Positions 5,816 to 29,724 of a stretch of 64,000 bases of DNA are shown here, one piece after another; the first letter of the stretch is position 1, and each line of letters opens with the position of its first letter. The stretch comes from Comamonas sp. B21-038 (GTDB lineage: Bacteria > Pseudomonadota > Gammaproteobacteria > Burkholderiales > Burkholderiaceae_C): positions 2,170,001 through 2,234,000 of the forward strand of contig NZ_CP092462.1 of NCBI RefSeq assembly GCF_022387135.1, read 5' to 3'. The position numbers and the translations under genes are program-made. The notes beneath the pieces are model-generated. The model saw nothing but the letters and a program-made list of their open reading frames with translations, was not told the origin of the DNA and made no database searches.

Positions 5816-6301
5816 ATGCCATCGTTTGACACGGTTTGCGAAGCCGACTTCGTCGAGGTGAAGAACGCTGTTGAGAATTCCGCCAAGGAAATTGGCACCC
5901 GTTTCGACTTCAAGGGAACGTCGGCCGGTATCGAGCTCAAGGACAAAGAGATCATCATGTACGGCGATGCCGACTTCCAGCTCGTGCAGGTCGAAGACAT
6001 CCTGCGCAACAAGCTGACCAAGCGCAATGTCGATGTGCGCTTTCTGGACAAGGGCGATGTGCAAAAGGTCGGCGGCGACAAGGTCAAGCAAGTGATCAAG
6101 GTGCGCAACGGCATCGAGCAGGAGCTGGCCAAGAAGATCCAGAAGCTCATCAAGGACAGCAAGATGAAGGTGCAGGCTGCCATCCAGGGCGATGCCGTGC
6201 GCATCACCGGCGCCAAGCGCGACGATCTGCAAGCGGCAATGGCGCTGCTGAAGAAAGACGTGACCGACGTGCCGCTGTCGTTCAACAACTTCCGCGACTG
6301 A
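5816..6301 (+). CDS. YajQ family nucleotide-binding protein
   Basis: 161-aa cytosolic protein of the YajQ (UPF0234) family; members have been reported to bind cyclic di-GMP or tRNA/GTP. It begins [20 protein letters not shown], contains the conserved RFDFKGT segment and ends PLSFNNFRD, as full-length family members do. A good ribosome site (AAGGAG) precedes the ATG. It converges on the TonB receptor gene, with a long perfect hairpin between the two stops. Confidence 0.93.
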
Positions 6302-6316
6302 TCCGCCATCGGTCAA

Positions 6317-6363
6317 ATACCAACAGGCCGCGCTGCATGGTTTGCAGCGCGGCCTGTTGGTAT
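6317..6363. terminator. Bidirectional hairpin between convergent genes
   Basis: A perfect 20-bp inverted repeat (6317-6336 and 6344-6363) with a 7-nt loop lies between the stops of the YajQ gene and the TonB receptor gene. Its position argues for a bidirectional terminator. There is no T-run on either side, so it would be atypical as an intrinsic terminator. Confidence 0.7.
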
Positions 6364-6375
6364 GGCGCCTACCTT

Positions 6376-8517
6376 TTAGAACTGGTAGTTCGCGCTCAGC
6401 AAAGCACCACGCGGCGTGCCGGGCATGCTGCTGCTGCGCCAGTATTCCTTGTTGGTCAGGTTGGACACCGCCAGGGTGACGGTCCAGGGCGCGGCGCGCC
6501 AGCCTACCAGGCCATCCCATCGGGTGTAGCCGGGCACGCGGCTGGTGTTGGCGTCGTTGGTGTAGCGCGCGCTGGTGTGGGTCACGCCCAGCTCGGCGTA
6601 CCAGTTGCCGGCAGGCGCATAGCGCAGAAAGACATTGCCATTGCGGCGCGCGGTGTTGGCCAGGTAGTTGCCCTCCAGCGCCGGGTTGGCCTTGTTCTCG
6701 GTGACCTTGGCCGCCATGATGCCGACGCCGCCACGCACATACCAGAACGGTGCCACACGGCCGGCCGCGCTGAACTCGATACCGCGCGAGCGCTCCTTGC
6801 CACGCACCGCCCAGGTGAAGGGGTCGTTGTCCGGATCGGGGCGGTAGCGGATGTTGTAGTGCTCCAGCTGGTAGACGGCCAGCTGTGTGGACAGCGCGCC
6901 ATCGAGCCAATCGCTCTTCACCCCCACCTCGAACTGCTGCGAATGCTGGGGCTCATCGTCCAGCACCGCGCCGGCGCCGGTATCGACCGACAAGATGCCG
7001 CGGCCGCCATAGGGTGAGAAGCTGCGGCTCCAGGACGCATACAGGCTGTGCTCGCGCACCGGCTGCCAGACCAGGCCGGCGCGGGGGCTGACCGAGTGGC
7101 CGTCGGTACTGCGGCTGGCGTTGTTCAGCTGGTTGGTGCTGTTGAAATCAAAGTTGTCATAGCGCGCACCCAGCAGCAGCTTCCACTGGTCGCTCAGGCT
7201 GATCAGATCCTGCACATACAGCGCGCGGGCCGTGCCTTTGTGCAGGTTGTGCTGCGAAGGCGCACCTTGGGGCGGGCGCACGGCATCGAACACCGGGTTG
7301 TTCGGGTCGATATAGCCATTGCTGCTGGCGGTGCTGAAGAGGCGCGGCGCGCGCTCTTCCTCGCTGTGCTCCACGCCCAGCAACAGCTCATGGCGCATGC
7401 CGGCCAGGTCCAGCTTGCCGGTCACATCGACGGTGTGGGTGGTGGTGCGGTTCTCGGTTTGCTGCCAGGCATAGCTTTGGCGCAGCAGGCCGGGGTTGGC
7501 GCACTTGGCGCCCGCCGGGGTCAGGCCCTGGGGGTTGCAGTAGGTGCCGGCAAAGTAGTGGTCAAAGTCCTGGCTGGCTTCACGCTTGCTGGCCACCCAG
7601 CGCACGCTCCAGGCGTTGTTGAACTCATAGGACAGGTCCGAGCGCAGCACGCGCAGGCGGTCTTCGACAAAGTCGCCTGGCTGGGCAAAGCCCTGGCGCA
7701 GCGACATGCCCGGCGGCATCTGGTCGTAGGCAGGGCCCCGGTCCGGCACGCGCCAGACGTTGTCATAGGTGTACTGGCCGGTCCAGCGCAGGCCCGTGCG
7801 CGTATCGACCAGGATGCTGGGCGAGACCATCTCGTTGCGGTTGCGGATGCCGCTGCGAAAGCTGTGCGCCTGCTCGCGGTCGGCCGTCAGGCGCATGACC
7901 ACATTGGGGCTTATCACCCGGTTGATGTCGATGGTGCCGCCCACGTTCTCCCAGGAGCCACCGCGCAGCGTGACGCTGCTGACGCCATCAAAGCGCGCCT
8001 GCTTGCTGACCATGTTGACGACGCCGCCGCCAGCGCCACGGCCGTACAGCACCGAGGCGGGGCCTTTCAGAATCTCGATGCGCTCCACATTGGCGGTGCT
8101 GCGGCGCACCTGGCCGGATTCGCGCACGCCATCGCGGTATATGTCGCCGCTGTCGGCATTGAAGCCGCGGATCATCACCCCCTCGCCGCGCATGTCGTAG
8201 CTGGTATTGACCCCCGGCACGCCATCAAGCATGACCGACAGGTCATTGATGCCGTAGCTCTTGAACTTGTTGACTTCCAAGGTGTCGATGGTCTGCGGGA
8301 TGTCCTTGGGCGCCATATAGGTCTTGGTCGCCGTGGTCACGCCTTCGGGCCGCACATCGTCGGGATCGAACTGGTCGGCCGACACCTGGACCGTTGGCAA
8401 GGTGTGCTCTTGCGCCATGGCCGGCAGCGCTGCCAGCATCAACAGCGCGGCGACCGACAGGCCGGCGCGCTCGCCTCTTGTACGCGCGAGCGTCTCGCTG
8501 CGAAGGGCTTGGATCAT
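6376..8517 (-). CDS. TonB-dependent siderophore receptor
   Basis: Outer-membrane receptor for a ferric siderophore (713 aa from the ATG at 8517). The start is set by an AGGAG site on the minus strand; an upstream extension would run through the promoter. A signal peptide ends near ALPAMAQ. The plug domain has the usual PQTIDTLEV and GRGAGGGVVNMV patterns, and the barrel ends in an aromatic residue (ANYQF), as outer-membrane proteins do. A Fur box lies about 60 bp upstream, so the gene should be induced by iron starvation. No siderophore synthesis genes are nearby. Confidence 0.93.
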   Translation of the reverse strand: MIQALRSETLARTRGERAGLSVAALLMLAALPAMAQEHTLPTVQVSADQFDPDDVRPEGVTTATKTYMAPKDIPQTIDTLEVNKFKSYGINDLSVMLDGVPGVNTSYDMRGEGVMIRGFNADSGDIYRDGVRESGQVRRSTANVERIEILKGPASVLYGRGAGGGVVNMVSKQARFDGVSSVTLRGGSWENVGGTIDINRVISPNVVMRLTADREQAHSFRSGIRNRNEMVSPSILVDTRTGLRWTGQYTYDNVWRVPDRGPAYDQMPPGMSLRQGFAQPGDFVEDRLRVLRSDLSYEFNNAWSVRWVASKREASQDFDHYFAGTYCNPQGLTPAGAKCANPGLLRQSYAWQQTENRTTTHTVDVTGKLDLAGMRHELLLGVEHSEEERAPRLFSTASSNGYIDPNNPVFDAVRPPQGAPSQHNLHKGTARALYVQDLISLSDQWKLLLGARYDNFDFNSTNQLNNASRSTDGHSVSPRAGLVWQPVREHSLYASWSRSFSPYGGRGILSVDTGAGAVLDDEPQHSQQFEVGVKSDWLDGALSTQLAVYQLEHYNIRYRPDPDNDPFTWAVRGKERSRGIEFSAAGRVAPFWYVRGGVGIMAAKVTENKANPALEGNYLANTARRNGNVFLRYAPAGNWYAELGVTHTSARYTNDANTSRVPGYTRWDGLVGWRAAPWTVTLAVSNLTNKEYWRSSSMPGTPRGALLSANYQF

Positions 8518-20541: not shown

Positions 20542-20617
20542 GCCGGTGTAGCTCAGTCGGTAGAGCAGCTCATTCGTAATGAGAAGGTCGGGTGTTCGAT
20601 TCATCTCTCCGGCACCA
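20542..20617 (+). tRNA. tRNA-Thr (anticodon CGT)
   Basis: A 76-nt cloverleaf with encoded CCA. The acceptor stem GCCGGTG pairs with CTCCGGC (one T-T mismatch). The D-arm is GCTC-AGTCGGTA-GAGC. The anticodon loop TTCGTAA gives CGT, which reads ACG. The T-loop is TTCGATT. It marks the left edge of the compositionally unusual 20.7-28.5 kb region, but I found no second copy of its 3' end that would prove a phage or island attachment site. Confidence 0.96.
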
Positions 20618-21323: not shown

Positions 21324-21462
21324 CGCTAGTGTGTTCACGTGGCGGTTGCAGAACGACGAACCTCGGCGCGAATGTTCTCAACGCTGCGAAGCGGCGAGCA
21401 CATACACCGGACAAAGCACAGTGCAACTGCGTGTACGCGCAGAAGTGGTGCTCGGTGGCCTG
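21324..21462 (+). repeat. 139-bp direct repeat, copy 1
   Basis: Matches copy 2 (21693-21831) at 136 of 139 positions: two adjacent differences near base 47 and one near base 81. It can fold locally: CGCTGC-GAA-GCGGCG forms a triloop hairpin, and GAGCAC (21396-21401) pairs with GTGCTC (21448-21453) around an inner CTGCG/CGCAG hairpin (21427-21431, 21438-21442). The copies are exactly 369 bp (123 codons) apart, so one frame (21331-21837) reads through both. Confidence 0.93.
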
Positions 21463-21692
21463 ATCGAGGTGCAGCTCGTGGCCCCTGAAGCTACGCGGGC
21501 TGATAGAAGTCGTTATGCAACAGGCCGAGGCGTGGATGCGGTGGACGGAACTGACCCGTCAGAGGCGCGCGAAACGCCGCAGATGGGTGCCGTGGCGAAA
21601 TTTCGCGCCCGCATCCTGCATATTCAATACACTTGGAGTGTCGTGATGAAGGTACGAATGAGTTTGATTTGCATTTTCGCCGCATGCGTGAG

Positions 21693-21831
21693 CGCTAGTG
21701 TGTTCACGTGGCGGTTGCAGAACGACGAACCTCGGCGACAATGTTCTCAACGCTGCGAAGCGGCGAGCACATTCACCGGACAAAGCACAGTGCAACTGCG
21801 TGTACGCGCAGAAGTGGTGCTCGGTGGCCTG
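21693..21831 (+). repeat. 139-bp direct repeat, copy 2, just upstream of the reverse transcriptase
   Basis: Second copy of the structured 139-bp element; it ends 52 bp before the reverse-transcriptase start. In the plus frame it follows an ATG (21648) with a hydrophobic stretch (MSLICIFAACVSASVFTW). A short secreted peptide is therefore conceivable, but the near-perfect DNA conservation and the hairpins fit an RNA or recombination element at least as well. Confidence 0.93.
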
Positions 21832-21883
21832 TCTTAAATCTGGCAATCTCAGGGGCATTTTTTAGCCGATTGCGATCAGAGAA

Positions 21884-23089
21884 TTGACTTACTTATCCGA
21901 AATTTCCCACGTAGATGGCCTGCGGCAAGCTTTTAGCCATATTTCCAAAGGCCGACTTGGTCGCCCCTCTGGACTAGTTCAAGGCGTAGACGGAGTATCA
22001 ATAAATTCATTCGCAGAAAATATTGACTCCAAGCTTTTGTCTCTTTCCAAGAGATTGAAAAGCGATTCTTTTCAATTCTCTCAGCTAAAACCAATTATTC
22101 TTCACGACCCGATAAAAAATAAGAGACGAATTATCTGCGTCCCGACTATCGCCGATCGCATTGTTCAAAGAGCAATCTTGGATAGAATTGCCAAATCGCA
22201 AGCCTGGCTATTCAATGAGATTAGTTATGGTTTTATACCAAGAACAGATGAACAAAAAGGGGTAGTTTCCGCTGTAAAAAAAGCAAAAGAGCTTAGAGAA
22301 TCCTCCCCCTGGGTTTTCAAGACCGATATCCAAAAATTCTTTGACCGGGTAAAGCGTCCGCTCCTAGAAGAAGAGGTGCGAAAAAAAATAAGGCAGCGCT
22401 CAATTCACAACCTCTTGCAGCAGGCCATGCATTGCGAAATCAAGCTGGGCCCTAGATCGGAATCGATTCAAATAAAGCAAGCAGGCATTAAATTTGGAGA
22501 AGGTGTTAGGCAAGGGATGCCTCTCTCGCCATTTTTCGCTAATTTAATGCTATCCGACTTTGACAAATACTGCATAAAATCTCATATAAAAGCCATTCGC
22601 TATGCAGATGATTTAATATTTTTCTGTCAGAGCAAAGATCAAGCCATTGCCATTCACCAAGAATGCAAGGAGCGGCTAGCTAAGTTAGAGCTTAGCATTC
22701 CAGATATAGAAGAAAGCAGCAAGAGTGTAATTGCAGGCCCAGATGATTCGGTTTCTTTTCTAGGAGTCGAGCTTTCTCCAGATGGGAAAGGAAATTACTC
22801 TCTTCTGGTTGGGAAGAAGCAATTTCTAGACATCAAAGGAAGCTTCTATAATCTATGCGGCATTTCAGAGTTGAAATCAAAGAACCTTACGCTCGGAAAA
22901 TTACAAGCCGTATTAGATTCAAAAAAGAATGCTTATAGCGCCTGTTACGATTACTGCGATAATATTCAAGAATTAGAAAATCAGATGAGCCACTGGACAA
23001 ATGGGGTTATTAAAAAAGTTCTGAATAATGTTGGCATTTCTGCCGCTACTCTCAGTATAGACGCGCAATGGCTGCTAGGTCTTAGATAA
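21884..23089 (+). CDS. Stand-alone reverse transcriptase
   Basis: 401-aa RNA-directed DNA polymerase. Catalytic Asp148 lies in FKTDIQKFFD, the RT4 motif is QGMPLSPFFAN (Gln210), and the YADD box is Y240-D243, so the enzyme looks active. The N-terminal GVDGVSINSF and RIICVPTIADRIVQRA resemble group-II-intron-like RTs. There is no maturase X or endonuclease domain. It lacks the QG-to-LG and SP-to-SQ changes of diversity-generating RTs, and I see no retron VTG motif. The start is TTG, with an in-frame TAG 21 bp upstream. The gene is strikingly AT-rich against its neighbours, a sign of transfer. A defence-type RT is the leading guess. Confidence 0.85.
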   Translation: MTYLSEISHVDGLRQAFSHISKGRLGRPSGLVQGVDGVSINSFAENIDSKLLSLSKRLKSDSFQFSQLKPIILHDPIKNKRRIICVPTIADRIVQRAILDRIAKSQAWLFNEISYGFIPRTDEQKGVVSAVKKAKELRESSPWVFKTDIQKFFDRVKRPLLEEEVRKKIRQRSIHNLLQQAMHCEIKLGPRSESIQIKQAGIKFGEGVRQGMPLSPFFANLMLSDFDKYCIKSHIKAIRYADDLIFFCQSKDQAIAIHQECKERLAKLELSIPDIEESSKSVIAGPDDSVSFLGVELSPDGKGNYSLLVGKKQFLDIKGSFYNLCGISELKSKNLTLGKLQAVLDSKKNAYSACYDYCDNIQELENQMSHWTNGVIKKVLNNVGISAATLSIDAQWLLGLR

Positions 23090-24124: not shown

Positions 24125-24510
24125 AAGCAGGGAAAGTGTTGTAATCTCACCCTGCACGACCCTTCTGCCCCTCGGCAGCCTTCTCATTTGCCCGATGCAG
24201 CACCGCCTGTGCATCCTCGGTCAGCGCATACAAAGCACTGTGCAGACCGCCTTACAGCCACTTGCTCAGTTTATACGACCCATCGTCATCCGCACCAATC
24301 AGCAGCGCCTATATAGCACTTAAGCCATACAAGCGCGTGTTGATCGCTTGGGCTTCCCGCTCCGTCAGCGCCAGGTCGTCCCTAAAGCCGCAGGCCCTAC
24401 GTTGCCTGCAAATGTCGTGAATGTCTAAAGGTCGGTCGTCTTGGCCCACGATGGACTGGAAGGCATCAACATGCGCGGTATCCGGGCTGGATGCATCCAA
24501 GCTGGTGGGA
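24125..24510 (-). repeat. Diverged ~375-bp duplication, left copy
   Basis: Clearly similar, in the same orientation, to 27373-27750 over about 375 bp; many substitutions are visible by eye. The two copies bracket the MazG/helicase gene pair. This copy carries in-frame stops and is decayed. Confidence 0.8.
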
Positions 24511-24623
24511 TCGCGCCAGTAGATGGGTGGCCAGTTGGTGTAGGCCAGTGGGCCCGATAGATGGGTTGGCGCCAGTGCCATTCCACTCGTTGGCGATGCA
24601 GAAGGTCTGCGCTTGGACGTCAT
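24147..24623 (-). pseudogene. Broken paralogue of the 27393-27812 protein
   Basis: Reading on the minus strand, the segment DRPLDIHDICRQRRACGF and TEREAQAINTRLYGLSAI matches the intact 139-aa protein. The frame is then cut by TAG at 24309-24311 and TAA at 24252-24254, after which homology continues in the same frame (ALYALTEDAQAVLHRANEK) to a TGA at 24147. The N-terminal part before DRPLDIHD differs from the intact copy, so the 5' end is recombined. Inactive copy of an unknown satellite-type gene. Confidence 0.75.
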
Positions 24624-24933
24624 AGGAGATGTCCCGCGTTTCCAGGCATTCGGCAGCAGGCGGTTGCAAAGGCTGTGAAAAAAACTGCTGACAGTGCCAG
24701 TCCCCATTGCATGAACCGACGCGCTGCATCCACCAGCGAACAAAGGGAAGAAGGGCTGTGCAAAGGCCCTTCGAAAAACATCAGAACACAGATAAATAAC
24801 CTTATCATCTGTTCAAAACGAACATGTTGCCCTCTCACGCAGAAGAAGCACTTTAGTGCTGCAGGCAGCATCGTTCGGATGCCCGAATCCCGAGATCAGT
24901 TTGAACCCCAAGCTGAGACCAAAGGTATGACCC
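24624..24933. other. Intergenic stretch before the MazG/helicase pair
   Basis: About 310 bp with no gene I can support. It has an AT-rich patch at 24770-24830 (ATAAATAACCTTATCATC) that could hold the promoter for the downstream pair, and a small hairpin AGCACTTTAGTGCT near 24848. Confidence 0.35.
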
Positions 24934-25308
24934 GTGGAAAAAACTCTTGTTAACGTTGATGGCGCCGCTCAAGCATTGAGGCAATTTGCTGAAGAGCGAG
25001 ATTGGCATAAATTTCACTCGCCCAAAAATCTGGTCATGGCGCTCTCCGGAGAAGTGGGCGAACTCACCGAAATATTCCAGTGGATGTCGGAAGCGGATTC
25101 GCTCAGTGCTGCGACCTCACCAAAAACATCCCAAGCAGTGCGCGATGAGCTCGCGGACGTCGCGCTTTACCTTGTGCGACTTGCCGACGTGCTTGGGGTT
25201 GACCTGAATGCCGCAGTGAGCAGCAAACTCGCTTCCAACGCTGCCAAGTACCCCATCGAACTCTCCAAAGGAGTGAGTACCAAGTACGACCAGTTGCCAA
25301 AGCCATGA
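24934..25308 (+). CDS. MazG-like nucleotide pyrophosphohydrolase
   Basis: 124-aa all-alpha NTP pyrophosphatase of the MazG/iMazG type (dCTPase or RS21-C6-like). Metal ligands are visible in SGEVGELTEIFQW and in DELADVALYLVRLAD. The start is GTG at 24934; a nearby ATG at 24927 is out of frame. Its TGA overlaps the next gene's ATG (ATGA at 25305-25308), so the two proteins are translationally coupled. Such enzymes hydrolyse (d)NTPs to monophosphates; here the coupling suggests a role with the helicase product. Confidence 0.85.
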   Translation: MEKTLVNVDGAAQALRQFAEERDWHKFHSPKNLVMALSGEVGELTEIFQWMSEADSLSAATSPKTSQAVRDELADVALYLVRLADVLGVDLNAAVSSKLASNAAKYPIELSKGVSTKYDQLPKP

Positions 25309-27176
25309 TCGTCTATCAAGCTGACAAGAAGGAATTCTTGGTTGACTACAACGATCGTGACATCGAGGACGTCATTTACGAAAAGTACCGCGCTGCCACA
25401 GACCGAAGAGTCGCGCAGGCAGAGATCCGATCCTGGCGAGAGTCCCTGGGCTATGTGGCACGTGTCCTGAGTGACCCGGAAATTGCCGACGATGTTGGGG
25501 TGGCGGTGGAATTTATCCTTCCGCAATCTGCCAAACGCATCGACGTCATTCTTGCTGGACATGCTGACGATGGTTCGCGACGTCTGATTGTTGTGGAGCT
25601 AAAGCGGTGGTCCTCAGTAAACGCTACAGACCGCGATGCCATTGTGTTGCTACGCCATGGCGGTCGCTCAGACCAAATGCGTGTGCATCCCAGCTACCAA
25701 GCATGGTCCTACACCGCATTTTTGGAAGGCTTCAACGAGGCTGTCTACGATGGCGGTTTGCAAGTACGCCCTTGCGCCTACCTGCACAATTACGCAGCGG
25801 ATGGGATCATCGATGCGGCTCACTATCAACCCTATATTGATCGTGCGCCACTGTTCCTGAAAGGTGATGATGATCGCAAGCGACTCAGAGAATTCATAAA
25901 ACAGCATCTTCGCCATGGACGAGGTCGTCAGGTGCTGTTCGATCTGGACCAAGGCCGTCTTCGCCCTTCCAAAGCGCTTGCTGACGTCGTCGGGAAGCTT
26001 CTCAAAGGCAACGAAGAATTCGCGCTGATCGATGATCAGAAAGAGATTTTTGAAGCTGCAAAGTCTGCATGCCGTCAAGCGAGCGCTTCCAACCAACCTC
26101 GTGTGGTGATCATTGAAGGCGGTCCAGGAACCGGCAAATCGGTCGTAGCAGTAAACCTGCTGGCAGCCTTGCGAGAAGGGCTGACTGTTAAATACATCTC
26201 CAAGAATGCGGCACCGCGTGCGGTGTATAGCGAAAAGCTCATCCAGACCAGAGAGAACGCGCATCTGGTCAATCTGTTTGGTGGCTCGGGCTCGTTCACT
26301 GAAACAAGCAAGGATGCCTTTGACGTGCTGGTTGTTGACGAGGCGCACCGCCTGACCGAGAAAAGCGGCTTCTACGGGAACCTGGGTACGCACCAAGTAA
26401 AGGAGCTTATCAACTCAGCCAAGTGCAGCATTTTCTTTATTGATGAAGACCAGCGTGTAACGCTCAAGGATGTGGGCACCAAGGCAGCCATCCGTGCGTT
26501 TGCGGCCGCTCGCGGAGCGGTGGTTGAAGAATACGCTCTTACCTCGCAGTTTCGCTGTTCAGGTTCAGATGGTTACCTTGCCTGGGTGGATGATGTCTTG
26601 CAAATCAAAGCGACTGCGAACGGCAGCCTTGAGGACATTCCGTTTGACTTTCAAGTATTCGATGATCCCGAGGAAATGCACGCAGCAATCGAGGCAAAAA
26701 ACGGCGCCAATCGAGCGCGCGTGGTCGCCGGATATTGCTGGCCCTGGAACAGCAAGAAGGACTCCAAGCAGATGGATGTGGTGATCGGTGATTACCAGCG
26801 TCAATGGAATCTCGACCAAGACGGCAGTCTTTGGATTACGGCCCCCCATTCAGTGCAGCAAGTGGGCTGCATCCACACCTGCCAAGGCCTGGAAGTGGAC
26901 TACATCGGCGTGATCATCGGTCCGGATCTGGTGATGGACGGAGAGCAACTTGCCACTCGACCCAGAGCACGCGATCGGCACGATAAAACCATGAAAGGCT
27001 TCGTGAAGATGTCCAAGGAACAGCCTGCTGAAGCTGCACGGCAGGCGGACATGATCATCAAGAATACGTACCGCACGCTAATGACGCGTGGAATGAAGGG
27101 GTGCTATGTCTATGCGACTGACGCAAAGCTGGCCGCCTATCTCAGGTCCCGTGGCAAGCAAACGCAGTCCGCTTAG
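25305..27176 (+). CDS. PD-(D/E)XK nuclease fused to DUF2075/Schlafen-like helicase
   Basis: 623-aa protein. The N-terminal region has a restriction-nuclease-like core: Asp80 in RIDVIL and E98-L-K100 in IVVELKRW. A P-loop ATPase of the DUF2075 (Schlafen group 3) helicase type follows: Walker A GGPGTGKS at 272-279, Walker B VLVVDEAHR near 341-349, then SQFRCSGSDGYLAWVDD and IHTCQGLEVDYIGVIIG near the C-terminus. Domain order nuclease-helicase and the coupled MazG-like gene suggest nucleic-acid degradation in phage defence. GC content is below the core genes. Confidence 0.82.
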   Translation: MIVYQADKKEFLVDYNDRDIEDVIYEKYRAATDRRVAQAEIRSWRESLGYVARVLSDPEIADDVGVAVEFILPQSAKRIDVILAGHADDGSRRLIVVELKRWSSVNATDRDAIVLLRHGGRSDQMRVHPSYQAWSYTAFLEGFNEAVYDGGLQVRPCAYLHNYAADGIIDAAHYQPYIDRAPLFLKGDDDRKRLREFIKQHLRHGRGRQVLFDLDQGRLRPSKALADVVGKLLKGNEEFALIDDQKEIFEAAKSACRQASASNQPRVVIIEGGPGTGKSVVAVNLLAALREGLTVKYISKNAAPRAVYSEKLIQTRENAHLVNLFGGSGSFTETSKDAFDVLVVDEAHRLTEKSGFYGNLGTHQVKELINSAKCSIFFIDEDQRVTLKDVGTKAAIRAFAAARGAVVEEYALTSQFRCSGSDGYLAWVDDVLQIKATANGSLEDIPFDFQVFDDPEEMHAAIEAKNGANRARVVAGYCWPWNSKKDSKQMDVVIGDYQRQWNLDQDGSLWITAPHSVQQVGCIHTCQGLEVDYIGVIIGPDLVMDGEQLATRPRARDRHDKTMKGFVKMSKEQPAEAARQADMIIKNTYRTLMTRGMKGCYVYATDAKLAAYLRSRGKQTQSA

Positions 27177-27372: not shown

Positions 27373-27750
27373 AGCAAGGCAAGCGCTGCGATTCACGCTG
27401 CGCCACCCTTCTGCCCCTCAGCAGCCTTCTCATTAGCCCGATGCAACACCGCCTGCGCATCCTCCGTCAGCGCATACAAAGCACTGTGCAAACCGCCTTG
27501 AAGCCACTTGCTCAGCTTGAACGACCCGCCATCATCCGCACCGATCAGCAGAGTCGATATAGCACTCAAGCCATACAAGCGCGTGTTGATCGCCTGGGCT
27601 TCCCACTCCGTCAGCGCCAGGTCGTCCGTAAAGCCGCCAGCCCTGCGGAGCCTGCAAATGTCATGAATGTCTAAAGGCTGATCGCCATGGCCAGCGAGGG
27701 CCTGGATGGCATCGGCATAAGCGGTATCTAGGCTGGACGATGTATCTGAG
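27373..27750 (-). repeat. Diverged ~375-bp duplication, right copy
   Basis: Right-hand partner of 24125-24510, in direct orientation. It covers most of the intact 139-aa hypothetical gene. Confidence 0.8.
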
Positions 27751-27812
27751 CTGGAATCCACAGATGCAGCGGTTTTTGCTGTCGCGCGGGCAGCTTGGGG
27801 CTTGCTGTTCAT
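27393..27812 (-). CDS. Hypothetical satellite-phage-type protein (139 aa)
   Basis: An intact 139-aa cytosolic protein that I do not recognise by name. It has an Ala/Ser/Thr-rich N-terminus (residues 1-40), then a helical region with HDICRLRRAGGF, a TEWEAQAINTRLYGL segment and a charged tail ending KAAEGQKGGAA. Its ATG overlaps the stop of the upstream Ash-like frame (ATGA), so they form one minus-strand unit. The paralogue at 24147-24623 is a pseudogene. Context suggests a P4-like satellite or prophage remnant. Confidence 0.6.
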   Translation of the reverse strand: MNSKPQAARATAKTAASVDSSSDTSSSLDTAYADAIQALAGHGDQPLDIHDICRLRRAGGFTDDLALTEWEAQAINTRLYGLSAISTLLIGADDGGSFKLSKWLQGGLHSALYALTEDAQAVLHRANEKAAEGQKGGAA

Positions 27813-28264
27813 GATGACGCCTCCTGACTCCGGGACAGGTTGCGGAGTAGAGGCCGTGCCTGTACGGCCATGTGCAGCGCGTTATGCGCGTCAGGATGCA
27901 GTTGGATAAGGGCGACTTCGCCCAGGCAGGAAGTGGGCGCAGAGATGCGCGCGAGGGAGGACTGAGCCATGGTGGACTCCAGGTGGTGCAGTTTGCTAAA
28001 ACCACCCCCTCCCACGCCAATAGAAGGCGGTAGCTCGAACAGGTTGGCGTACCGGGCACCTCCTGCGAGAACCGGCGGAGCTTTCGCTCCCCCATCCGAG
28101 CCACCATAAACCGGGGCACAGACAAGAGAGCCGCAGACTCTGCGAAATAGAGACCACGGCTTACGTCGTGGAGATGCTCCGGGACGCCAATCCCGACTGC
28201 GCTTTACTGGCGCAGCGGCGTAACTGTAGCACGGCAGGAATGGGAGTGTTGAGGTGTGGCGCAT
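27809..28264 (-). CDS. Ash/Icd-like satellite-phage frame
   Basis: A 151-codon frame beginning MRHTSTLPFLPCYSYAAAPV. This pattern, followed by GGSDGGAKAPPVLAGGARYANL, recalls the Ash / cell-division-inhibitor-like proteins of P4-type satellites, where the coding frame runs through the C4 antisense RNA. A shorter product starting at 27970 (MAQSSLARISAP, 53 aa) is equally possible and may be the real protein, since the middle part is constrained as RNA. It overlaps the 139-aa gene's start by 4 bases. Confidence 0.5.
   Translation of the reverse strand: MRHTSTLPFLPCYSYAAAPVKRSRDWRPGASPRRKPWSLFRRVCGSLVCAPVYGGSDGGAKAPPVLAGGARYANLFELPPSIGVGGGGFSKLHHLESTMAQSSLARISAPTSCLGEVALIQLHPDAHNALHMAVQARPLLRNLSRSQEASS
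28018..28125 (-). ncRNA. C4-like antisense RNA of P1/P4-type phages
   Basis: On the minus strand the segment contains GGGGGAGCGAAAGCTCCGCC (a GGAGC-GAAA-GCTCC tetraloop hairpin) followed by AGGAGGTGCCCGGTACGCCA and then ACCTG. This is the hallmark arrangement of C4 RNA, which in P1/P4 regulates an anti-repressor or the phage immunity region by antisense pairing. Ends are approximate. Its overlap with an Ash-like frame is the usual arrangement in satellites. Confidence 0.6.
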
Positions 28265-29109: not shown

Positions 29110-29409
29110 CTAGGGATTGATCGGCTGCGCAACCAGGCGAACACCGAGCGCTGCACACACACGCCAAATGGTTTCAAAGCGCGGATGGCTACCCGGACGC
29201 AGCGCCTTGTACAGCGCCTCTCGGGTCAGGCCGCTGGCACTTGCTATGTCGCCCATGCCACGCGCGCGCGCAATCACACCCAGGGCATGCGCAAGCTCGG
29301 AAGGATCTTCTTCCTCCATCACCAAGGTCAAATAGGCGGCCACCTCTTCATCCGTTTTCAAATGCTCTGCCATGTCAAAGTTGGGCAGGTCTGCAATCTT
29401 GACCATCAT
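29110..29409 (-). CDS. HigA-type antitoxin (addiction module antidote)
   Basis: 99-aa DNA-binding antitoxin. It shows the family pattern of an N-terminal D-x-x-EHLKTDEEVAAYL segment, then a helix-turn-helix with ARARGMGDIASASGLTRE, ALYKALRPGSHPRF and a C-terminal ALGVRLV. It directly follows the toxin gene on the minus strand, starting at the base next to the toxin stop. It should neutralise the RelE-like toxin and repress the pair. Confidence 0.88.
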   Translation of the reverse strand: MMVKIADLPNFDMAEHLKTDEEVAAYLTLVMEEEDPSELAHALGVIARARGMGDIASASGLTREALYKALRPGSHPRFETIWRVCAALGVRLVAQPINP

Positions 29410-29724
29410 CTACTCCTTCTCGCCCTCTTCCGGCTCCAAAGTGGCAGCCAGCGCCTGGGCAGCAGCGATATCCGCTTGTTGGCTGGACTTGTCACCACCG
29501 CCCAGCATGACTACCACCACATCTCCACGCTGCACGTAGTACATACGCCAGCCTGGGCCAAAGTCTTCTCGCATTTCGTAAACGCCTGCGCCAACGGATT
29601 TACAGTCGCCCATCAAACCACGTGTGACCTTGTCCAAACGCTTGGCCAGGCGAATACGCGTCATCGTGTCACGCAGACCATGGAGCCAGGCATCGAATTC
29701 AACAGTGCGCTTGACGGTGAACAT
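29410..29724 (-). CDS. RelE/ParE-family toxin (HigB-like)
   Basis: 104-aa toxin of the type II RelE/ParE superfamily (TIGR02683-like). It has FDAWLHGLRDTMTRIRLAKR, the core EMREDFGPGWRMYYVQ and VVVMLGGGDKSSQQADI; GGGDKSSQ is diagnostic of this subgroup. The toxin comes first and the antitoxin second, the HigBA order. Likely a ribosome-dependent mRNA interferase. It lies 90 bp past the Coq7-like gene, near the island edge. Confidence 0.9.
   Translation of the reverse strand: MFTVKRTVEFDAWLHGLRDTMTRIRLAKRLDKVTRGLMGDCKSVGAGVYEMREDFGPGWRMYYVQRGDVVVVMLGGGDKSSQQADIAAAQALAATLEPEEGEKE

Follow-up and report, generated by a model that had tools for sequence, protein, structure and literature searches.

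A reverse transcriptase preceded by a repeat-spacer-repeat element with an endless reading frame in Comamonas and other bacteria

We analyzed a 64,000-nt stretch of the genome of Comamonas sp. B21-038 (contig NZ_CP092462.1, positions 2,170,001 to 2,234,000; hereafter the window), in which a stand-alone reverse transcriptase (RT) gene is preceded by two near-identical repeats. The RT gene (21884-23089, + strand) starts with TTG, encodes 401 aa and contains a YADD motif at about 22601-22612. Upstream and on the same strand lie a first 139-nt repeat (R1, 21324-21462), a 230-nt spacer (S, 21463-21692) and a second 139-nt repeat (R2, 21693-21831) that ends 52 nt before the RT gene. The repeats are in direct orientation, 369 nt apart from start to start and identical at 136 of 139 positions, two of the three mismatches falling in one patch (21738-21739 in R2, 21369-21370 in R1). 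An earlier note on this stretch had described the RT gene and the two repeats upstream of it, and our analysis bore this description out, including the stand-alone character of the RT, in which Pfam recognizes RVT_1 only (E = 2.4e-29). R1 and S together amount to 123 codons and, when this unit is joined to itself, one sense frame runs through it without stops, R1 being open in it; in the genome, the R1-S-R2 frame is closed by a TAA 6 nt beyond R2 (21835-21837, +). Between R2 and the RT gene lies a hairpin (GCAATC...GATTGC; 21843-21873, +). Within S, a Shine-Dalgarno (SD)-like GGAG (21635-21638, +) precedes an ATG (21646-21648, +) that is in the endless frame, 47 nt 5' of R2, and opens the hydrophobic segment MKVRMSLICIFAACVSA. 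The R1/R2 sequence is confined to this one locus of the 5.18-Mb single-contig genome, and no RNA family was detected at the repeats or the RT at Rfam gathering thresholds.

Relatives were not recovered by single-sequence scans of genome and viral contigs, and the RT family proved rare: under strict thresholds it was found in one of 274 genomes of the class, one of 398 of the phylum and one of 399 of the family, always the window's own genome. An alignment of five sequences used as query yielded 76 genome loci and 21 viral loci (locus numbers are preceded by L). A repeat pair lies 5' of the RT in 32 of the 63 loci examined, with R of 63-150 nt and copies 96.6-100% identical; the pair ends about 35-86 nt before the RT and is split by a 1-nt indel in L038/L039. 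This recurrence supports the suggestion of the earlier note that the duplicated upstream element may be a new RT template RNA. Close homologues do share such an element, its architecture and frame being kept as far as the alphaproteobacteria. Among plasmid relatives of the RT (29-40% identity), a repeat pair of 126 nt was found at a spacing of 399 in Acinetobacter seifertii and A. pittii and of 378 in an A. baumannii record, and one of 129 nt at a spacing of 387 in A. soli; no repeat pair was found in the Acetobacter plasmid relative. The R sequences of different loci often have nothing in common, and the copies within a locus match. Across the sequences compared here, it is thus the architecture and the reading frame that are conserved, more than the letters of the repeat.

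The R1-to-R2 distance is divisible by three in 31 of the 32 loci, and each of these 31 self-joined R+S units has exactly one stop-free sense frame, the other sense frames containing 1 to 24 stops; a stop-free antisense frame is present in 8 of them. In the single exception, L057 (395 nt), one base of S is deleted relative to L045. A locus found later, L133 (R of 145 nt, spacing 453), also presents one stop-free frame, with 14 and 9 stops in the others. Its relative L136 (452 nt) departs from the length rule and has an RT frameshifted in many places, the mark of what we read as a dead copy. With L133 included, the rule is kept in 32 of 34 loci and all 32 units have one stop-free sense frame. 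Relative to dinucleotide shuffles of 22 representatives, the probability of such openness ranged from <0.001 to 0.45 per locus, L012, L013, L086 and L009 being the least probable by chance (each 0.004 or below). The summed log10 of -30.8 excludes the length rule, which adds (1/3)^22, and is overstated because related loci are not independent. Annotation was consulted for three plasmid stretches that carry R-S-R, and the frame is not listed in any of them, although this gene table is itself incomplete. We conclude that the R-S-R architecture and its open frame are very likely a real feature of these loci.

SD-led in-frame starts are located mainly in S. They stand 44-47 nt 5' of R2 in the window, L036, L038, L039, L041 (GTG), L043 and L112, whereas most alphaproteobacterial loci have them near the beginning of S; the window's S also holds two GTG codons further upstream (-215 and -152 from R2) behind a weaker GAGG. 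No SD-led start precedes S in 25 of 31 loci, yet the frame is open from R1 to the start. In L036, L038, L041 and L043 the sole SD-led start is 44-46 nt before R2 and follows about 70 open codons of S, which could not be translated from that start in the genomic copy. The unit encodes 97-151 aa. A hydrophobic 19-aa segment (Kyte-Doolittle value of at least 1.6) is present in 20 of 28 units; when the residues of a unit are shuffled, the frequency of such a segment is below 0.05 for 17 of the 28.

The two copies of R differ in their coding properties. The frame through R1 is open in all 31 units, as part of the result above, and an in-frame stop lies within R2 in four of the 31 (the Variovorax gossypii locus L035, L036, and L038/L039 behind the 1-nt indel), representing three lineages. 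Stops in R2 and not in R1 run contrary to the pattern of an ordinary gene that ends in R2, and are expected if the R of the product, or at least its 3' part, comes from R1. The copies are identical in 9 of the 32 loci, show scattered single differences in 6 and, in the other 17, diverge within a short patch (1-4 nt, near positions 36-61 of R) that in R2 tends to be rich in A. Priming or jumping may take place at this patch; ACA occurs in it in 4 of the 17 patch loci, and the jump homology here would be the long R. In 11 chosen pairs of loci (1358 columns), concerted change of both R copies was seen in 212 columns, compared with 38 columns with within-locus differences. The earlier note had suggested that the duplication might itself be a product of the RT; the concerted change could be explained by RT activity, gene conversion or selection for identity. 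Transfer of nascent cDNA, perhaps with cDNA-templated conversion, would explain why copies are identical within a locus and unlike across loci.

The hairpin behind R2 corresponds in place to a covarying 7-bp stem in nine aligned relatives, an alignment made up of sequences other than the window's. Six of the seven pairs have changes on both sides (shuffled mean 3.4), and 95.2% of cells are paired, compared with 77.7% when shuffled and at most 49.2% when slid. Hairpins of other sequence occur at the same place in single folds of many other loci, with modest energy z-scores (9 of 26 below -2). The earlier note had stated that each repeat can form several hairpins; this capacity proved not to be special, R1 of the window having a z-score of 0.3 relative to dinucleotide shuffles. 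More generally, excess structure inside R and S was unconvincing (mean z of -0.98 across 26 loci).

The window RT contains the motif RQGMPLSP, and the solved structures nearest to it by sequence are the GsI-IIC RT, other group II intron RTs and G2L4 RTs. Its NCBIfam matches are all below threshold, the best being group_II_RT_mat at 166.8 bits (cut-off 300), and no intron RNA occurs at the locus, nor any Rfam intron in the window at the gathering threshold. The RT is thus not an ordinary group II intron open reading frame (ORF), an outcome that the earlier note had named as one that would undo its proposal. In PADLOC a generic RT model matched at 173.5 bits and UG17 at 137.3; an RT-Cas1 model scored 112 bits. 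Membership in UG17/DRT10 was rejected, the window RT scoring 137 bits against 450 for L077 and the clades being separate in the tree; so was membership in the Drt2 family (42.2 bits, NCBIfam cut-off 390). The retron assignment failed likewise (73 bits for the St85 family against a cut-off of 235, Ec67 and TIR retron models far under cut-off, and no Rfam match at the locus). A diversity-generating retroelement was also considered and rejected on the R1/R2 mismatches (C>A, G>C and A>T), which are not adenine-specific.

In the tree, 33 of 62 RTs, the window RT among them, form one clade (SH-aLRT 99, quick method), and UG17-type and other RTs fall outside. The tree omits L014 (25% identity, between two insertion sequence copies), L013 and L084 (short RT frame), the near-duplicates L010, L039, L057, L058 and L063, and other partial or weak matches. 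R-S-R is present in 25 of the 30 clade members with upstream DNA, the remaining three of the 33 being cut by a contig end, and in none of the 16 RTs tested outside the clade; of these 16, L066 and L067 have only about 450 nt upstream, and L074 and L113 have other, more distant repeats. Three of the five clade members without R-S-R (L062, L052 and L054) retain a single R, which precedes the hairpin and RT; for two of them, L052 and L054, the alignment extends into R1's left flank. A single R is as expected from deletion between the repeats or from a collapsed assembly. No R was seen in the other two, L011 and L047. The absence of repeats in L011, L014, L047, L052, L054 and L062 recurred under a looser test, which covered 12 of 19 loci. 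In L037, L050 and L111 the stored sequence starts 100-250 nt before the RT match; where these starts are contig ends, assemblies may break at the repeat and R-S-R is possibly under-counted in draft genomes. The locus on one contig filed under a Heimdallarchaeota metagenome-assembled genome (MAG; L058) hardly differs from the one in Acinetobacter higginsii (L060), and the contig is probably contamination.

The locus belongs to a low-G+C island whose left boundary is a tRNA-Thr (CGT) gene (20542-20617, +) ending 706 bp 5' of R1. The kilobase of the RT has 40% G+C and the island (20-30 kb) 40-59%, compared with 59-70% in most other kilobases of the window. The AT-rich RT gene in a GC-rich chromosome, noted earlier, is confirmed; the recent acquisition read from it stands in part only, since a genome of another species of the genus (G014; one of 36 congeneric genomes searched) has this locus too, next to the same tRNA, and its two repeats keep the 369-nt spacing. 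From 21291 to the end of the RT the two genomes differ at 14 of 1798 positions (0.8%; 1.3% for S alone), compared with 3.9% in the flanks on either side (indels are uncounted in both figures). R-S-R with the gap to the RT has 5 substitutions in 560 positions against 36 in 934 for the flanks (Fisher P 0.0004), and changes in the RT comprise 8 synonymous ones and 1 non-synonymous, with a synonymous rate similar to that of the flanks (P 0.71). From this comparison, RT and repeat region both look selected.

We then considered the neighboring genes, clustering ORFs of at least 100 aa within 3.5 kb of the RT in 35 loci. The largest cluster, with members in 11 of the 35, is the R-S-R frame itself. 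Links to defense islands are scattered: the sample of neighbors scanned (20 proteins by PADLOC, 10 by Pfam) includes a type IIG restriction-modification system near L060, mads near L053 and a TIR gene near L036, together with phage genes (a portal near L111 and a terminase near L112). No SLATT match was found in this sample.

Other features of the window's island were recorded in passing. A MazG-like gene (24934-25308, +) runs into the beginning of a gene for a Schlafen group 3 helicase (25305-27176, +; PF09848, E = 1e-102, with weak PADLOC matches to PDC-S41, Nhi and AbiO), and the two possibly form a defense pair, kept in G014. They are flanked by two short ORFs with similar stretches (24309-24743 and 27393-27812, -) that by eye are perhaps copies left by island rearrangement, and a toxin-antitoxin pair of the HI1419/HI1420 type lies at the island's far side (29110-29724, -). 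C4 antisense RNA (RF01695), a phage or satellite immunity RNA, was found within a few kb of R-S-R in two unrelated carriers out of nine sources scanned, the window (28023-28111, -) and L012 (3737-3821, -). At other loci, the Acetobacter plasmid L011 has an ORF 3' of the RT (6092-7687, -) with a long run of a short peptide repeat, and the alphaproteobacterial MAG locus L056 has a group I intron (RF00028; 3037-3232, +) about 200 nt 5' of R1.

Taken together, our results suggest that the locus is likely a two-component retroelement, consisting of an RNA and an RT, that assembles a gene absent from the genome and encoding an endless membrane protein, a probable anti-phage effector. In this model the R-S-R RNA would be copied into DNA, and the RT probably makes an (R-S)n concatemer. 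The transcript would begin near the 5' edge of R1 and run through R1, S, R2 and the hairpin into the RT message. The RT would grip this RNA by the hairpin behind R2, the element backed by covariation, and would begin cDNA in or near R2, copying S and then R1. The cDNA end complementary to R1 would re-anneal to R2, adding one R-S unit per round; the jump may come after the RT has run off the 5' terminus of the RNA, close to R1, or it may take place at the short patch. The simplest reading of the identical RNA ends, the hairpin beside the RT gene and a unit that makes most sense as a repeated protein is that the cDNA end passes repeatedly from R1 to R2. The second strand of the concatemer would carry the stop-free sense frame, which in most loci has a ribosome-binding site and start inside S. 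If expressed, it would yield a protein that is long and repetitive, to which each unit adds about one hydrophobic segment, and that would act as a membrane-damaging effector, most likely triggered by phage infection. A function in defense is reasonably likely in our view, considering the hydrophobic segments, the precedent of other defense RTs (DRTs) and the scattered phage, restriction-modification and TIR neighbors.

Several observations weigh against this model. One open frame by chance is not rare in G+C-rich units (up to 0.45 per locus). A positional control, with segments of the same length taken 5' of R1, was open in 535 of 1278 cases, we think because these segments run through ordinary genes; it does not help the model and hardly harms it. 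Conservation of the unit's residues is weak, with ratios of non-synonymous to synonymous differences (pN/pS) of 0.42-0.94 in 18 pairs aligned with protein guidance, so that selection is visible in the missing stops and the length, not in the residues. Five clade members lack R-S-R, three of them with the single R described above, and the RT of G014 is frameshifted. SD-led codons do occur before S in 6 of 31 loci (L035, L009/L010, L046, L056 and L064), the same test found no SD-led start in L040 and in the Collimonas locus L042, and 8 of 28 units fall under the hydrophobicity threshold. As for the RNA, the hairpin was both picked and counted on one alignment, further pair types in its stem are not unusual (117 of 500 shuffles as high, in one of five measures), and promoter-like sites show no more than a mild, suggestive enrichment before R1 (9 of 28, compared with 4.3±1.8, in a test with assumed base frequencies). 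Finally, no constant partner gene was found near the RT in the 35 clustered loci, and PADLOC matches were obtained for only 3 of 19 neighbor proteins of other loci.

Other explanations were weighed as well. It is possible, if unlikely, that the loci contain an ordinary small membrane-protein gene, starting in S and ending in or after R2, whose 3' half was duplicated as R1, while the RT copies something else or regulates this gene. Most loci do combine an SD-led start in S with a stop in or soon after R2, and a hydrophobic segment follows the early S start in alphaproteobacterial loci; with such early starts, and with the window's two GTG codons as further possible starts, the genome alone could encode S and R2. 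However, such a gene would leave R1 free to decay, yet R1 keeps an open frame, in phase with S, in all 31 units, and it is R2, the supposed coding copy, that has stops in four. Nor would the stretch from R1 to the start in S need to be open, and in the Burkholderiales loci L036, L038 and L043 the sole start just before R2 would give a peptide without the hydrophobic part encoded by S. Direct repeats of about the size of R recombine readily, which makes a DNA-level switch conceivable, with recombination between R1 and R2 excising S as an R-S circle that has the endless frame and with the RT incidental or acting later. The single-R loci L062, L052 and L054 are the expected deletion product, and 3 of 35 loci (L041, L060 and L011, the last without R-S-R) have a DNA invertase-like gene nearby. 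We regard this explanation as quite improbable: no recombinase is constant among the neighbors, a covarying RNA hairpin and the RT follow R2, R-S-R has been observed in a single RT clade, and the single-R loci come from draft genomes or MAGs, in which repeats may collapse.

Two further alternatives were considered. R-S-R could be a structural or template RNA whose cDNA is itself the effector, as in DRT9, DRT10 and retrons, the open frame being incidental. The weak protein-level constraint on the unit would fit, and there is precedent in RT systems that act through DNA products, as far as described in the parts of the reports drawn on here (PMC12483538, PMC12632851, PMC13213688). Incidental openness would not account for the multiple-of-three length, for a frame without stops in all 31 units or for the asymmetry of stops between R1 and R2, and we hold this alternative to be very improbable. 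The adjacency of an RT and two near-identical repeats of about 140 nt also recalls a diversity-generating retroelement with R1 and R2 as template and variable repeats. This can practically be dismissed, considering that the mismatches lack adenine specificity, that both copies lie 5' of the RT and that no model named for such elements is among the best 25 of 78 PADLOC matches. The retroelement that writes a repeated gene remains our preferred explanation.

The idea of a never-ending gene is already known from DRT2; what differs here is the RT clade, the strand, the proposed jump homology and the predicted product, and our literature search, which covered open-licence PMC papers, found no paper on the R-S-R architecture. 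On balance we lean slightly toward a second, separately evolved RT-written gene, with retrovirus-like strand transfer and a sense-encoded endless membrane toxin, acting as an inducible abortive anti-phage system. If this is true, never-ending genes would be a strategy found at least twice and not a peculiarity of DRT2, the second case differing from the first in those four respects. The element would also be a simple natural system in which to study how a group II-like RT transfers strands over a long range, and would link telomerase-like repeat addition with retroviral R-mediated transfer. Genomes would then hide further genes that ordinary annotation may miss, and the rule (R-S-R, a length divisible by three and an open circular frame) can be scanned for directly.

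The closest known system is DRT2 with its neo gene in Klebsiella pneumoniae, in which a 120-nt unit divisible by three and without stops is repeated by template jumping at ACA motifs, the frame lying on the cDNA strand (PMC11100668, PMC12039810). To the extent covered by the sections of these papers used here, the two systems share an RT with an upstream RNA and no partner gene found, a unit divisible by three and stop-free across junctions (here the 31 of 31 multiple-of-three units and L133), a ribosome-binding site and start within the unit, a genomic copy without the whole frame, and jumps between matching sequences at the template ends, which here would be the repeats. On the same partial basis, they differ in jump homology (63-150 nt here, ACA trinucleotides in DRT2), in unit length (291-453 nt compared with 120 nt), in strand (sense here, cDNA strand in DRT2) and in RT clade; Neo is a predicted alpha-solenoid (PMC11100668), whereas the units described here have hydrophobic, membrane-type segments. 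DRT10 (UG17) likewise combines an RT with a non-coding RNA and produces telomerase-like tandem-repeat cDNA, of 9-nt units and with a SLATT partner, according to the portion of its description considered (PMC12632851). The tandem-repeat cDNA would be a shared trait, but the element described here has an RT of another clade, no constant partner gene and a unit of hundreds of nucleotides instead of 9.

More distant parallels exist as well. In retroviruses and long terminal repeat elements, identical R sequences at both RNA ends let the cDNA end transfer from the 5' copy to the 3' copy. Here, in contrast, the two repeats lie on the same side of the RT gene, neither an integrase nor an RNase H gene is constant, and the proposed outcome is a concatemer and not integration. 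Finally, group II intron-like (G2L) and CRISPR-associated RTs are the best generic profile matches of the window RT, which differs from them in its RQGMPLSP motif and its separate clade; neither intron RNA nor a maturase or Cas1 domain was found.

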